This document shows positions 6,860-58,268 of a DNA stretch of 64,000 bases, piece after piece (positions within the stretch are counted from its first letter, which is position 1; the number at the start of each line of letters is the position of its first letter). Both the position numbers and the translations under genes were made by a program. The stretch lies in contig NZ_CP059183.1 of assembly GCF_014251275.1 (NCBI RefSeq), positions 186,001-250,000 on the forward strand. The letters run 5' to 3'. The stretch comes from Blattabacterium cuenoti. GTDB taxonomy: Bacteria; Bacteroidota; Bacteroidia; Flavobacteriales; Blattabacteriaceae. The notes below the pieces were generated by a model. The model was not told the origin of the DNA. It did no database searches and saw only the letters and a list, made by a program, of their open reading frames with translations.

Positions 6860-6899
6860 TTTACCGGAAAGGAAATAAATTTATTTCCTTTCCGGTAAA
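6860..6899. repeat. Perfect 40-bp palindrome before pdhB
   Basis: Bases 6860-6879 are the exact reverse complement of 6880-6899; the core of each arm is ACCGGAAAGGAAAT. As RNA it would fold into a hairpin of about 18 bp with a minimal loop. It lies 47 bp after the lipoprotein stop and 14 bp before the pdhB start. A short TTTTATATT follows on the plus strand, so it could terminate the upstream gene. It is also placed to act as an operator or RNA-processing site in the pdhB leader. It is more GC-rich than its surroundings. Confidence 0.85.
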
Positions 6900-6913
6900 T
6901 TTTATATTATAAT

Positions 6914-7894
6914 ATGAAAGAAAAAACTTTTCGTGAAGTTATAAAGGAAGCTATGAGTGAAGAAATGAGGAGAGACAATTCAGTATATTTAATGGGAGAA
7001 GAAGTAGCTAAATATAATGGAGCATATAAAGCATCTAAAGGAATGTTAGATGAATTTGGACCTGAAAGAGTTATAGATACACCAATATCAGAATTAGGTT
7101 TTTCTGGAATAGGAATTGGTTCTGCTATGAATGGATGTAGACCAATAATAGAATTTATGACTTTTAATTTTTCATTAATAGCTATGGATCAAATTATTAA
7201 TAATGCTGCAAAAATTCGTTATATGAGTGGAGGTCAATGGAATATACCTATTGTTTTTAGAGGCCCAACTGGATTTGCTGGACAGTTAGGAGCTACCCAT
7301 TCTCAAACATTTGAAAGTTGGTATGCTAGTTGTCCAGGTTTAAAAGTAATAATACCTAGTAATCCATATGATGCAAAAGGGTTATTAAAATCAGCAATAA
7401 GAGATGATGATCCAGTTATTTTCATGGAATCTGAACAAATGTATGGAGATAAAATGATTATTCCAGAAAAAGAATATATTTTGCCAATTGGCAAAGCAGA
7501 TATAAAAAAAGTAGGATCTGATGTAAGTCTTGTTTCTTTTGGCAAGATTATTAAAATTGCCTTGGATATAGCATATAAATTAGAAAAAGAACACATAAGT
7601 GTAGAAGTTTTAGATCTAAAAACTATACGACCTTTAGATTATACTTCTATTTATACTTCTGTAAAAAAAACAAATCGTTTAGTAATATTAGAAGAATCCT
7701 GGCCATTTTCATCTATTTCTTCTGAAATTTCATATTTTATACAAAATAAAGCATTCGATTATTTAGATGCACCAATTAATAGAGTAACATTGTTAGATAC
7801 ACCAGCACCTTATGCAAAAAATCTAATAAAATATTGGTATCCAAATGAAAAAAAAATAATAAATTCTATAAAAAAAACACTATACATTAAATAA
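6914..7894 (+). CDS. pdhB: Pyruvate dehydrogenase E1 component, beta subunit
   Basis: The 326-residue protein belongs to the E1-beta family: RDNSVYLMGEEVAKYNGAYKASKG, then RVIDTPISELGFSGIGIGSAMNG (with the catalytic glutamate), GPTGFAGQLGATHSQTFESWYA, and the transketolase C-terminal domain. It pairs with E1-alpha to bind thiamine diphosphate and decarboxylate pyruvate, feeding acetyl-CoA synthesis. pdhA and the E2 gene are not adjacent, so the complex is scattered in this genome. It starts 14 bp after a perfect 40-bp palindrome, an unusual leader. Confidence 0.95.
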   Translation: MKEKTFREVIKEAMSEEMRRDNSVYLMGEEVAKYNGAYKASKGMLDEFGPERVIDTPISELGFSGIGIGSAMNGCRPIIEFMTFNFSLIAMDQIINNAAKIRYMSGGQWNIPIVFRGPTGFAGQLGATHSQTFESWYASCPGLKVIIPSNPYDAKGLLKSAIRDDDPVIFMESEQMYGDKMIIPEKEYILPIGKADIKKVGSDVSLVSFGKIIKIALDIAYKLEKEHISVEVLDLKTIRPLDYTSIYTSVKKTNRLVILEESWPFSSISSEISYFIQNKAFDYLDAPINRVTLLDTPAPYAKNLIKYWYPNEKKIINSIKKTLYIK

Positions 7895-12662: not shown

Positions 12663-13415
12663 TTATCTTATAGGAATTGAAAGATTTTTCAAATAAAATT
12701 TTAAATTTGGAATTTCTATTTCTTTATAATGGAAAATGCTTGCTGCTAATGCAGCATCTGCTTTACCATTTTTGAATATATTATAAAAATCTTCTAATTT
12801 TCCGGCTCCCCCTGAAGCTATTACTGGAATAGGAACTTCTTCAGAAACAGATTTAGTAATATCTAATGCAAATCCACTTTTTGTTCCATCATGATTAATT
12901 GAAGTTAACAGAATTTCTCCGACTCCTCTATTATACCCTTCTTTTGCCCAATCTAAAGATTTAGTATTTGTTGGGATCCTCCCTCCATTTAAGTAAACAA
13001 TCCAACTATTTTTTTCATACTTTGTATCAATAGATAACACAATACATTGAGAACCAAATCTTTTGGAAAGATTTTCCAAAAGATTTGGTTCATTATAGGC
13101 AGCTGTATTAATAGATATTTTATCTGCACCTGAAAGTAATAATAACTCTACATCTTCTTCTTTTTGTATTCCCCCACCAACAGTAAAAGGTATATTAATA
13201 TAGCGAGAAATATCTTTAACCAAACTAATTAAAGTTTTTCTATTTTCATTTGTAGCAGTAATATCTAAAAATATTAATTCATCAGCGCCTTGTTTAGTAT
13301 ACCAATATCCTAATTCTATAGGGTTTCCAGCATCTTTTAAATGTTTAAAATTTATTCCTTTTACTGTTCTTCCGTTTTTAATATCTAAACATGGGATTAT
13401 ACGTTTGGCTAACAT
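12663..13415 (-). CDS. hisF: Imidazole glycerol phosphate synthase, cyclase subunit
   Basis: The 250-residue TIM barrel uses ammonia from HisH to form imidazole glycerol phosphate and AICAR. It begins MLAKRIIPCLDIKNGR, with the first catalytic Asp in CLDI, and carries TVGGGIQ and SIDTKY. The second phosphate site is VIASGGAG. It sits 3 bp after hisA and shares its half-barrel ancestry. HisH is encoded two genes upstream. Confidence 0.97.
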   Translation of the reverse strand: MLAKRIIPCLDIKNGRTVKGINFKHLKDAGNPIELGYWYTKQGADELIFLDITATNENRKTLISLVKDISRYINIPFTVGGGIQKEEDVELLLLSGADKISINTAAYNEPNLLENLSKRFGSQCIVLSIDTKYEKNSWIVYLNGGRIPTNTKSLDWAKEGYNRGVGEILLTSINHDGTKSGFALDITKSVSEEVPIPVIASGGAGKLEDFYNIFKNGKADAALAASIFHYKEIEIPNLKFYLKNLSIPIR

Positions 13416-45366: not shown

Positions 45367-47697
45367 ATGAAAAACATGAATTTTTTTATTATTATTTTGT
45401 TATTTACTTTTTTTTCTTCTAGTTCTGTTTTTTCTAATTCGAAAGAAAAAGAATCTGAAGAAAATTTGTATTTGCGATTAGGAACACATGATGTAAATTA
45501 TTTTCCTACTAATTCGCCTTTTAAAGGTAATTTTGATAAAAAGTACCATAGTATTGATCCAGTAATTTCAAATGTTGGATTAGGATATGATATAAACAAA
45601 TATGTTGGAATTTGCTTAGATGCATCATTAGGATTGGTAGATAATCGAAGATGGGATATAGAAGATTCTTTATTTATTAACCTTACTAAAGGTGTAACCT
45701 TCCATGTATATCCAAACCATAAAATTGATCCTTATATTAGAATAGGTGGAGGTTATCACAAATTTAATAAATATGTAGATAAAGAATTATCAATTTCAGA
45801 AAAACATCTATTTAAAACTGAAAATAAAAACTTTGCTGTAGTAGATGGAGGATTAGGTGTAAATTTTTGGATGATTCCAAATTTAGGATTGAATTTACAA
45901 AGTACATATAATCATGTATTTGAAAATAAATCTCCAAATTATTTAGATTTTTGGAAACACAATATTGGATTAATTTTCCGTTTTGGTAGTTTACATGATA
46001 TAGATGATATAATAAAAAATAGAAATACTAACATATTATATAAAAAAAATAAAAACAAAAAAGTAAGTTCAATTGATAATAAATATGAACATAAACATTC
46101 TGTTATTCACAGTAATAAAGGAAAATCTAAAAAAACTAAAACTACTACTAATAAAAAGAATAAATCTATTTCTAAAACTAAAATATTAAATACTAATACT
46201 AATACTACTAATACTAATAATAGTAACGTTAATTGTTGTAATAATGATAATAAAAATTCAAGAGATAAAAATAAGGTAATAATTGATAATGAAAATAGTG
46301 ATGATAATAATATTATCAATAGTAAAAACAATAATGAAATAATTAACTTAAATTCAGATATAGATAAAGATGGCGTTTTAGATAAAGATGATTTATGTCC
46401 AAAAACATATGGATTAAAAGAATTTCAAGGTTGTCCAGAATCTGTTTATGTTAAAAAAAATCCTACTGTCCCAACTAAAAATAGTACAACATTTAATTTT
46501 ACTCCTTCTATAAATGAAAATATTCCTACTATAATTCCAAATGGGAAAACTATCCCATCTATTCTAAATACTAATGTAAAAAAAACAATAGTTAAAGAAA
46601 TTATTAAACCTAAAGCTAAAGGAAAAGGAGTAATAATATCAAATAAAAATATTCCAAAAAATATTTCTAATGTAAATAAAGGAAAGAATAAAGTAATAAG
46701 TTCTAAAAATAAAACACCTAAAGGAATTAAAACTAAAAGTAGTAGAGGAAGAGTTCCAGTTAGAGGAAGAGGAAGAGTTCCAGTTAGAGGAAGAGGAAGA
46801 GCTCCAGTTAGAGGAAGAGGAAGAGCTACAGTTAGAGGAAGAGGAAGATCCCCAGTTAGAGGAAGAGGAAGGGCCCCAGTTAGAGGAAGAGGAAGAGCCC
46901 CAGTTAGAGGAAGAGGAAGGGCCCCAGTTAGAGGAAGAGGAAGGGCCCCAGTTAGAGGAAGAGGAAGAGCCCCAGTTAGAGGAAGAGGAAGAGCCCCAGT
47001 TAGAGGAAGAGTCTCAATTAGAGGAAAATCAGCAGTTAGAAGAAAAACACCAGTTAGAAGAAAAGCACAAATTAGAAGAAAAGCACCAGTTAGAAGAAAA
47101 GCACTAGTTAGAAGAAAAGTACCAGTTAGAAGAAGAACTCCAGTTAGAAGAAAAGCACCAGTTAGAAAAAGAGTCCCAGTTAGAAGAAAAACACCAGTTA
47201 GAAGAAGAGGTAAAAATGTAGTTAGAAGAAGAGGTAAAAATGTAGTTAGAGGAAGAGGTAAAAGTGTAGTTAGAGGAAGAGGTAAGAGTGTAGTTAGAGG
47301 TAAAAATATAGTTAGAGGAAGAGGTAAAAGTGTAGTTAGAGGAAGAGGTAAAAGTGTAGTTAGAGGAAGAGGTAAAGGTGTAGTTAGAGGAAGAGGTAAA
47401 GGTGTAGTTAGAGGAAGAAGAAAAAGTGTGGTCAAAGGAAGAAGAAAAAGTATAGTTAGAGGAAGAAGAAAAAGTGTAGTTAGAGGAAGAAGAAAAAATG
47501 TAGTTAGAGGAAGAAGAAAAAATATAGTTAGAGGAAGAGTAAGAAGTAGAGTAATAACTAAAAAAAATAGAAAGATAACTACTAATACTAAAGAAAAAAA
47601 AATAAGTAGTAGTAATAACAACAAAAACAACAAAAATAAAAATCAAACTATAACAAAAAAAACAGATACAAATAATAAAACAAAAAAAAACAAATAA
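45367..47697 (+). CDS. OmpA-like outer-membrane protein with Arg-rich repeat tail
   Basis: The 776-residue product begins with a signal peptide (about residues 1-23). An OmpA-type eight-strand barrel follows (about 30-206), with strands ending in aromatic residues such as IGLIFRF. Next is an Asn/Thr/Lys-rich linker (about 210-330) and a TSP3-like calcium motif (331-357: DIDKDGVLDKDDLCP, then CP). Normally an OmpA_C peptidoglycan-binding domain would follow; I see none. Instead residues 463-724 are three tandem arrays rich in Arg, Gly and Lys (46753-47010, 47011-47208, 47209-47538), then a Lys/Asn tail. The barrel should anchor it in the outer membrane with the tail in the periplasm. The tail's function is unknown. 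Confidence 0.85.
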   Translation: MKNMNFFIIILLFTFFSSSSVFSNSKEKESEENLYLRLGTHDVNYFPTNSPFKGNFDKKYHSIDPVISNVGLGYDINKYVGICLDASLGLVDNRRWDIEDSLFINLTKGVTFHVYPNHKIDPYIRIGGGYHKFNKYVDKELSISEKHLFKTENKNFAVVDGGLGVNFWMIPNLGLNLQSTYNHVFENKSPNYLDFWKHNIGLIFRFGSLHDIDDIIKNRNTNILYKKNKNKKVSSIDNKYEHKHSVIHSNKGKSKKTKTTTNKKNKSISKTKILNTNTNTTNTNNSNVNCCNNDNKNSRDKNKVIIDNENSDDNNIINSKNNNEIINLNSDIDKDGVLDKDDLCPKTYGLKEFQGCPESVYVKKNPTVPTKNSTTFNFTPSINENIPTIIPNGKTIPSILNTNVKKTIVKEIIKPKAKGKGVIISNKNIPKNISNVNKGKNKVISSKNKTPKGIKTKSSRGRVPVRGRGRVPVRGRGRAPVRGRGRATVRGRGRSPVRGRGRAPVRGRGRAPVRGRGRAPVRGRGRAPVRGRGRAPVRGRGRAPVRGRVSIRGKSAVRRKTPVRRKAQIRRKAPVRRKALVRRKVPVRRRTPVRRKAPVRKRVPVRRKTPVRRRGKNVVRRRGKNVVRGRGKSVVRGRGKSVVRGKNIVRGRGKSVVRGRGKSVVRGRGKGVVRGRGKGVVRGRRKSVVKGRRKSIVRGRRKSVVRGRRKNVVRGRRKNIVRGRVRSRVITKKNRKITTNTKEKKISSSNNNKNNKNKNQTITKKTDTNNKTKKNK
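46753..47010 (+). repeat. Array A: 11 copies of a 24-nt (8-residue) unit
   Basis: Units read xPVRGRGR with x = V, A or S (one copy has T for P). Ten are full length and the eleventh is cut to APVRGR. Copies 6-11 are almost identical at nucleotide level, differing mainly by AGG or AGA before GCC, which suggests recent duplication. The GGGCCCC stretches are unusual in this AT-rich genome. Confidence 0.95.
47011..47208 (+). repeat. Array B: 11 copies of an 18-nt (6-residue) unit
   Basis: Units follow xxVRRK, for example TPVRRK, APVRRK, ALVRRK, VPVRRR; the first is VSIRGK and copy 4 is AQIRRK. It shares the VR core with arrays A and C but has a shorter period. Copies are more diverged than in array A. 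Confidence 0.93.
47209..47538 (+). repeat. Array C: 14 copies of a 24-nt (8-residue) unit
   Basis: Units follow GKxVVRGR with x = N, S or G; the last five start RK instead of GK. The fourth is cut to GKSVVR. Neighbouring copies are often pairwise alike, fitting stepwise duplication. The array ends at VRSRVITKK. Confidence 0.93.
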
Positions 47698-47740: not shown

Positions 47741-47772
47741 AAACCTCTTGTTTATTTTATAACTAGAGGTTT
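47741..47772. terminator. Bidirectional terminator between the OmpA-like gene and tatC
   Basis: AAACCTCT (47741-47748) pairs with AGAGGTTT (47765-47772) around a 16-nt loop, followed on the plus strand by GTTTTTTTATTTTTTT. It lies 43 bp after the OmpA-like stop and just before the convergent tatC stop, so it can serve both genes. Confidence 0.75.
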
Positions 47773-47778
47773 GTTTTT

Positions 47779-56802: not shown

Positions 56803-58268
56803 AAAAAACATTGAAAAACGTTTTTAAAAATGTAACAATACTAAAAAAAATAGGATTTATTTCTAATAAATTTATAGTTGGAATTTATATACATTCTAAT
56901 AATGTTAAAAAAAATTCTATGTTTTTTGCAAAAAAAGGGGAAATAACAGATGGACATGAATTTATTAATGAAGCAATAAAAAGAGGCGCTAATACAATTG
57001 TATGTGAAAAAATTCCTATTTGTATTAATAAAAATATAACATATATACTTGTTAAAAATACTATTGTATCTCTAGGGATTATATCTTCTAATTTTTATGA
57101 CAATCCAACTAAAAAAATTAAACTAATAGGAATTACAGGGACAAATGGTAAAACATCTATAGCAACTATATTACATCAATTATTCTATAAGATGGGAGAG
57201 GATAATATTCTTATTTCTACAATAGAAATAAGAATATTATCCAATAAATATAAAACTATACATACAACTCCAAATATTATTGATATTAATAAATACCTAT
57301 ATTTAGGTATAAAAAAAAAATGTAAATATGCTTTTATAGAGGTCAGTTCCCATGGAATTGATCAGAAAAGAATTTATGGATTGTTATTTAAGGGCGGTGT
57401 ATTTACTAATATAACACATGATCATTTAGATTATCATAAATCATTTCATCATTATTTGTTTACTAAAAAGTTTTTTTTCAATAGTTTACCCAACAAATCT
57501 TTTGCTTTAATTAATTGTGATGATAAACATTATGATAAAATTATAAAAGAAATTTCAGCAAAATTATATTCTTATGGATTGAAAAAAAATGCTGATTTTA
57601 ATGCAAAAATTTTACAAACTAATTTTTATGGGAGTTCCATTTTGATTAATGGACATAAAATATTTACAAGTTTAATAGGAAAATTTAATGTATATAATAT
57701 TTTAGCTAGTTATGCTACGTCTATATTATTAGGTAAAAAAAAAGATGAAATTTTAAAAATTATAAATGAAATTAAACCAGTAAATGGACGTTTTGAACAA
57801 TTTTTATCAAATTCAGGAATTCGTGTAATTGTAGATTATGCTCATAATCCTAATGGATTAAAAACAATTATAAAATCTATTAAAGAAATAAAAAAAAAAA
57901 ATGTAAGATTGATTTGTGTTATAGGATGTGGAGGGAATAGAGATGTTATAAAACGATCTTTAATGGGTAAAATTGTTTATGAAGAATGTGATATTTCTAT
58001 TTTTACTTCTGATAATCCTAGAGAAGAAGATCCATATAAAATATTTATGGATATGAAAAATTTTAGTTCATATATTGAAAAAAAACCTATATTAACTATT
58101 TTAAGTAGAAAAAAAGCTATAAAAACTGCAATCAAAATTGCAAATAAAAATAAAAAATATATTATTTTAATAGCAGGAAAAGGTCATGAAAATTATCAAG
58201 AAATAAAAGGATCCCGTTATCCTTTTAATGATATAAAAATAATAAAAAATTTTTTAAATAAAAAATAA
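56799..58268 (+). CDS. murE: UDP-MurNAc-tripeptide synthetase, meso-DAP-adding
   Basis: The 489-residue Mur ligase adds the third amino acid to the stem peptide. The ATP loop is GITGTNGKT (111-119), and EVSSHGIDQKRI and the carbamylated-Lys region are present. The DNPR motif at 405-408 marks meso-diaminopimelate as substrate, agreeing with dapF in the window. mraY begins 4 bp downstream. Confidence 0.96.
   Translation: MKKTLKNVFKNVTILKKIGFISNKFIVGIYIHSNNVKKNSMFFAKKGEITDGHEFINEAIKRGANTIVCEKIPICINKNITYILVKNTIVSLGIISSNFYDNPTKKIKLIGITGTNGKTSIATILHQLFYKMGEDNILISTIEIRILSNKYKTIHTTPNIIDINKYLYLGIKKKCKYAFIEVSSHGIDQKRIYGLLFKGGVFTNITHDHLDYHKSFHHYLFTKKFFFNSLPNKSFALINCDDKHYDKIIKEISAKLYSYGLKKNADFNAKILQTNFYGSSILINGHKIFTSLIGKFNVYNILASYATSILLGKKKDEILKIINEIKPVNGRFEQFLSNSGIRVIVDYAHNPNGLKTIIKSIKEIKKKNVRLICVIGCGGNRDVIKRSLMGKIVYEECDISIFTSDNPREEDPYKIFMDMKNFSSYIEKKPILTILSRKKAIKTAIKIANKNKKYIILIAGKGHENYQEIKGSRYPFNDIKIIKNFLNKK

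Follow-up and report, generated by a model that had tools for sequence, protein, structure and literature searches.

What is a perfect palindrome doing immediately upstream of pdhB in the decaying genome of a cockroach endosymbiont, and which gene does it serve? The palindrome lies in the analyzed window of 64,000 nucleotides, positions 186001-250000 of a 594,902-bp Blattabacterium genome (Table 1), and, isolated as it is, its nature can be settled by comparison with congeners. The first-pass annotation had offered an operator, a processed RNA hairpin, or a terminator with read-through into pdhB. Conservation, covariation and the asymmetric distribution of T favor a terminator, and it is very probably an intrinsic (Rho-independent) terminator of the upstream lipoprotein gene, belonging to a small set that Blattabacterium would keep after genes of typically abundant proteins. 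As judged from sequence comparison, the palindrome is most likely an ordinary kind of transcription stop signal ending the gene of a surface protein; it is notable mainly for the rarity of such signals in this symbiont, where the others follow genes of typically abundant proteins.

Table 1. Features of the pdhB-upstream locus and of a comparable site in the window
Feature	Position	Strand	Evidence and remarks
Lipoprotein-like gene, 240 aa	6091..6813	+	ORF; by eye, a signal peptide and a lipobox-like FSC; most likely terminated by the hairpin
5' arm of palindrome/hairpin	6860..6879	+	Perfect palindrome; RNA stem of 18 pairs
3' arm of palindrome/hairpin	6880..6899	+	Perfect palindrome; RNA loop 6878-6881
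T-rich tail TTTTATATT, 7 T of 9	6900..6908	+	T count; a terminator scan also reports the site
pdhB, pyruvate dehydrogenase E1 beta subunit	6914..7894	+	ORF and protein-family match; 14 nt 3' of the hairpin
Comparable hairpin AAACCTCT...AGAGGTTTG, then T-tract	47741..47773	+	3' of OmpA-family gene 45367-47697; included in the proposed set

The palindrome and its predicted RNA fold

Positions 6860-6899 are their own reverse complement. All 20 pairs match, the next pair outward (T/T) fails, and the resulting 40-bp perfect palindrome is the strongest inverted repeat listed for the window; the ATG at 6914 follows after a gap of 14 bases (6900-6913). The reverse complement and the ORF coordinates thus confirm the element as first annotated, and it is indeed richer in GC than its surroundings, with 12 of 40 bases (30%) compared with 22.7% in 270 kb sampled from the same genome. 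Base composition alone predicts about 1e-4 perfect 40-mers in 594,902 bp. Folded as RNA, the segment 6850-6915 reaches -25.7 kcal/mol, compared with -7.7 +/- 2.5 kcal/mol for 200 dinucleotide shuffles, none of which was as good (z = -7.1), showing that the palindrome is real and beyond chance. Six of the stem pairs are G-C, G-C pairs lie near the base of the stem, and the loop has 4 nt. The tail 3' of the stem had been called a weak U-tract; its longest run is only four T, but with seven T in the first nine bases it is not poor in T but interrupted.

Further copies of the arms, for which a search had been suggested, were not found: a whole-genome search gave no second copy and one partial match (82%) at 394950. 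At the Rfam gathering score nothing was found at 6860-6899, and two tRNAs were the only matches in the window. In the available text of open-licence literature on Blattabacterium terminators, palindromes, operon RNA-seq and lipoproteins, no description of this hairpin was found.

Conservation and covariation in Blattabacterium

We compared the region preceding pdhB among 38 genomes of the genus and scored a hairpin as present if its stem was better than all 40 local shuffles. A hairpin between the lipoprotein-like gene and pdhB is present in 28 genomes and absent from ten; one of the latter (G015) has a stem score of 23 but stays within its shuffles and was excluded. The commonest arms are AACGGAAAAG/CTTTTCCGTT. 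Where the commonest arm reads AACGGAAAAGAAA, the source strain has ACCGGAAAGGAAA, and its other arm has changed to match. The purine-rich core noted earlier on one arm is likewise inherited, from the genus-wide arm CGGAAAAG. All 28 stems contain at least three G-C pairs, and 25 of the 28 loops are no longer than 8 nt. Arm bases 1-8 have a mean identity of 93%, while the flanks have 40% and 35%.

The compensatory changes that had been sought in sister strains are present. In the alignment (A1), two-sided changes occur in eight of 13 pairs and 96.1% of cells are paired, with the source strain's 3' arm placed one column off, so that the pairing of that strain is in part miscounted; on each of five measures the alignment outscored all 500 shuffles. 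Twenty of the 38 genomes contain a single copy of the motif CGGAAAAG..CTTTTCCG, always beside pdhB, and none of the 38 contains its reversed control. A covariance model (R1), run on the 38 genomes with 150 candidates scored per genome, has the pdhB-upstream site as its top match in each of the 28 hairpin genomes, its scores being circular because the model was built from the same sequences; the best match elsewhere (G030:481707-481752) reaches 39.8 bits.

Inverted repeats are described as frequent in Blattabacterium in the available text of PMC10434271, which would fit a chance palindrome or a mobile repeat. Such an origin is extremely improbable given the small number expected, the covariation of stem pairs, the presence of the hairpin at the orthologous place in 28 of the 38 genomes and the lack of a second copy in the genome.

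T-rich tails and strand asymmetry

On the + strand side, the nine bases next to the 28 hairpins contain 6.9 T on average, versus 2.6 on the other side. The + side is richer in T in 27 of 28 cases, and six or more T are found there in 25 hairpins, compared with one on the other side. The tails with fewer than six T are those of G003, G011 and G021, and in G003 the stem as scored has swallowed the tail. In 21 of the 28 tails the longest T run is at least five. The segment 6860-6908 combines what is expected of an intrinsic terminator: a stable G-C-paired stem, a short loop, a U-rich tract and compensatory change. We propose that the palindrome acts as RNA and not as DNA, and that the stem with its basal G-C pairs, the 4-nt loop and the U-rich tail would stop RNA polymerase before pdhB.

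A dimeric regulator binding the palindrome as DNA and controlling pdhB would account for the perfect dyad near the start codon and for the conserved arm sequence. An operator of this type would have fixed half-site spacing and would stay with the regulated gene, whereas the loops range from 3 to 19 nt, and pdhB is found in 38 of 38 genomes but the hairpin in only 28. The number of sites (one per genome) and the strand asymmetry of the T tail also argue against DNA binding, making an operator very improbable.

The upstream gene and its co-loss with the hairpin

The lipoprotein-like ORF has no Pfam or NCBIfam match. Its counterparts have the same type of start at the same position in most congeners, and inspection of the ORF lists by eye shows a lipobox-like start and fast change of the remaining ORF.

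Seven of the ten hairpin-less genomes also lack the lipoprotein ORF (G015, G017, G020, G024, G026, G034 and G060), and 27 of the 28 hairpin genomes have it. Since ten genomes retain pdhB without the hairpin and the lipoprotein gene is missing from seven of them, the hairpin is not a fixed operator of pdhB. Counting against a terminator of the lipoprotein gene are three hairpin-less genomes that retain the ORF (G010, G025 and G029) and one hairpin genome in which the gene is degraded (G021). In a plain table that ignores kinship, the co-loss gives a Fisher p of 7e-5. Few forks of the pdhB tree are supported, and the tree allows one independent pair on well-supported branches and four at most, too few for significance; co-loss of the hairpin with the lipoprotein gene is therefore only suggestive. 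The clearest case is the pair G034/G060, which lacks both, next to the source strain, which has both, and the branch joining them (92/54) is not strongly supported.

Consequences for pdhB expression

The hairpin lies 14-62 nt from the pdhB start codon in the 28 genomes, and the 14 nt of the source strain is the shortest distance. Because a promoter and a leader do not fit in 14 nt, pdhB of this strain is likely to depend either on partial read-through past the interrupted tail or on a near-leaderless start whose promoter elements would overlap the 3' arm. The read-through suggested earlier is thus plausible in the source strain.

The same short distance, the interrupted tail and the very stable stem could also belong to a processing or stabilizing hairpin within a continuous lipoprotein-pdhB transcript, where the stem would protect or mark a 3' end generated by RNase cleavage and so yield more lipoprotein than PdhB. 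We consider this unlikely, as the T-tracts of most relatives are unbroken in the manner typical of termination.

Rarity of T-tailed hairpins after stop codons

Stems with at least three G-C pairs and a T tail were sought with a detector in 1,058,934 bases from five genomes, which contain 880 ends of ORFs of at least 100 aa. T-tailed hairpins follow the stop codon at eight of the 880 ends: five are the pdhB-upstream site, once per genome, and the other three follow groEL, the HU gene and the OmpA-family gene, in one genome each. The same detector found 71 hairpins inside coding sequence and six at other non-coding places. In the first 670 kb, 55 matches were obtained in total versus approximately 16 expected from shuffles, so those within coding sequence are more than noise and a detector match alone is weak evidence. 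Two of the six other non-coding hairpins are the hairpins upstream of pdhB and after groEL read on the opposite strand; one further hairpin each was found upstream of a hisG-like gene and a cysE-like gene (identified by eye), in the space separating two ORFs, and between a rodA-like gene end and the tmRNA gene. Rho is present in the genome, and other transcript ends can therefore arise by other means.

Hairpins after groEL, HU and OmpA-family genes

Gene ends were compared at 30 loci per gene. Gene-specific hairpins follow groEL at 28 of 30 loci (arms AATAGTGTC/GACACTATT), HU at 25 (common form GATAAAGTTTG/CAAACTTTATC) and the OmpA-family gene at 25 (CCTCTTG/CAAGAGG and variants); these genes were chosen because one locus each had been flagged, and without the flagged loci the counts are 27/29, 24/29 and 24/29, respectively. 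No such hairpin follows pdhB itself at any of 30 loci. In the source strain, inspection by eye found groEL arms AAATAGTGTC..GACACTATTT, altered HU arms AATGTAAAG..CTTTACATT and the OmpA-family hairpin of Table 1, which has a long loop; in the locus count its OmpA entry (L283) was scored as a miss because the locus stops short of the stop codon, and the hairpin was found otherwise.

High abundance is typical of GroEL, HU and OmpA. Since the other members of the proposed set follow genes of such proteins, we predict that the uncharacterized lipoprotein, as the fourth member, is abundant as well; it may be an abundant surface protein of cockroach symbionts. According to the available text of a Blattabacterium transcriptome study (PMC11050582), the GroES-GroEL operon is among the highly expressed genes.

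The hairpins retained 3' of stop codons, few as they are, suggest which genes the symbiont most needs to insulate. A broader proposal, which we put forward tentatively and hold to be possible rather than probable, is that Blattabacterium has retained strong intrinsic terminators at very few gene ends (those of the lipoprotein, OmpA-family, groEL and HU genes), with conserved arms particular to each, so that decay would have left a list of the most expressed genes readable from the sequence; arm conservation beyond pairing would then hint at recognition of the 3' hairpin, for example by an RNase or an RNA-binding protein stabilizing the mRNAs.

Comparison with known terminators

The Blattabacterium hairpin resembles intrinsic terminators in its basal G-C pairs, short loop, T tail and position just 3' of a stop codon, although the textbook stem is shorter and more GC-rich. 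It differs from usual intrinsic terminators in that its arms are conserved genus-wide and very few such sites exist in the sampled genomes. In E. coli, genes of envelope proteins such as lpp offer a parallel, a strong terminator following the gene of a small abundant lipoprotein, whereas the abundance of the Blattabacterium lipoprotein is a prediction. Buchnera, likewise a reduced AT-rich endosymbiont, has hairpin terminators 3' of coding sequences according to the available text of PMC3091783. TransTermHP predictions reported there place terminators in 47% of the intergenic regions between same-strand genes and 86% of those between convergent genes, percentages that are not directly comparable with our eight of 880 ORF ends, the Blattabacterium detector being stricter.

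Other repeats and hairpins

The OmpA-family outer-membrane gene at 45367-47697 (776 aa) keeps a beta-barrel domain (PF13505), while a domain search did not find the OmpA domain in its product, unlike in the G022 ortholog. In place of this domain the gene contains about 800 bp (46744-47547) of 24- and 18-bp tandem repeats, which encode arginine-rich RGRGRAPV, RRKAPV and RGRGKSVV units.

Two further perfect inverted repeats with 3-nt loops were seen in the window: one of 19 bp at 13051-13091, within a coding ORF of the - strand (12663-13415) judged by eye to be HisF-like, and one of 20 bp at 57200-57242.

A strong hairpin of similar sequence occurs in three species (G030, L171 3108-3150; G005, L161 near 4821; G022, L176 near 3284), and the G030 copy lies inside an ORF that by eye is UvrD/PcrA-like helicase. 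In G005, a perfect T-tailed hairpin (L157 11114-11145) overlaps the end of the rodA-like ORF approximately 30 nt before the tmRNA gene on the same strand; a simple rule based on abundance would accommodate it only if it served the tmRNA gene. The T-tailed hairpins upstream of the cysE-like and hisG-like genes (L184 5952-5972 and L177 454-477, respectively; genes identified by eye) may be leader elements.
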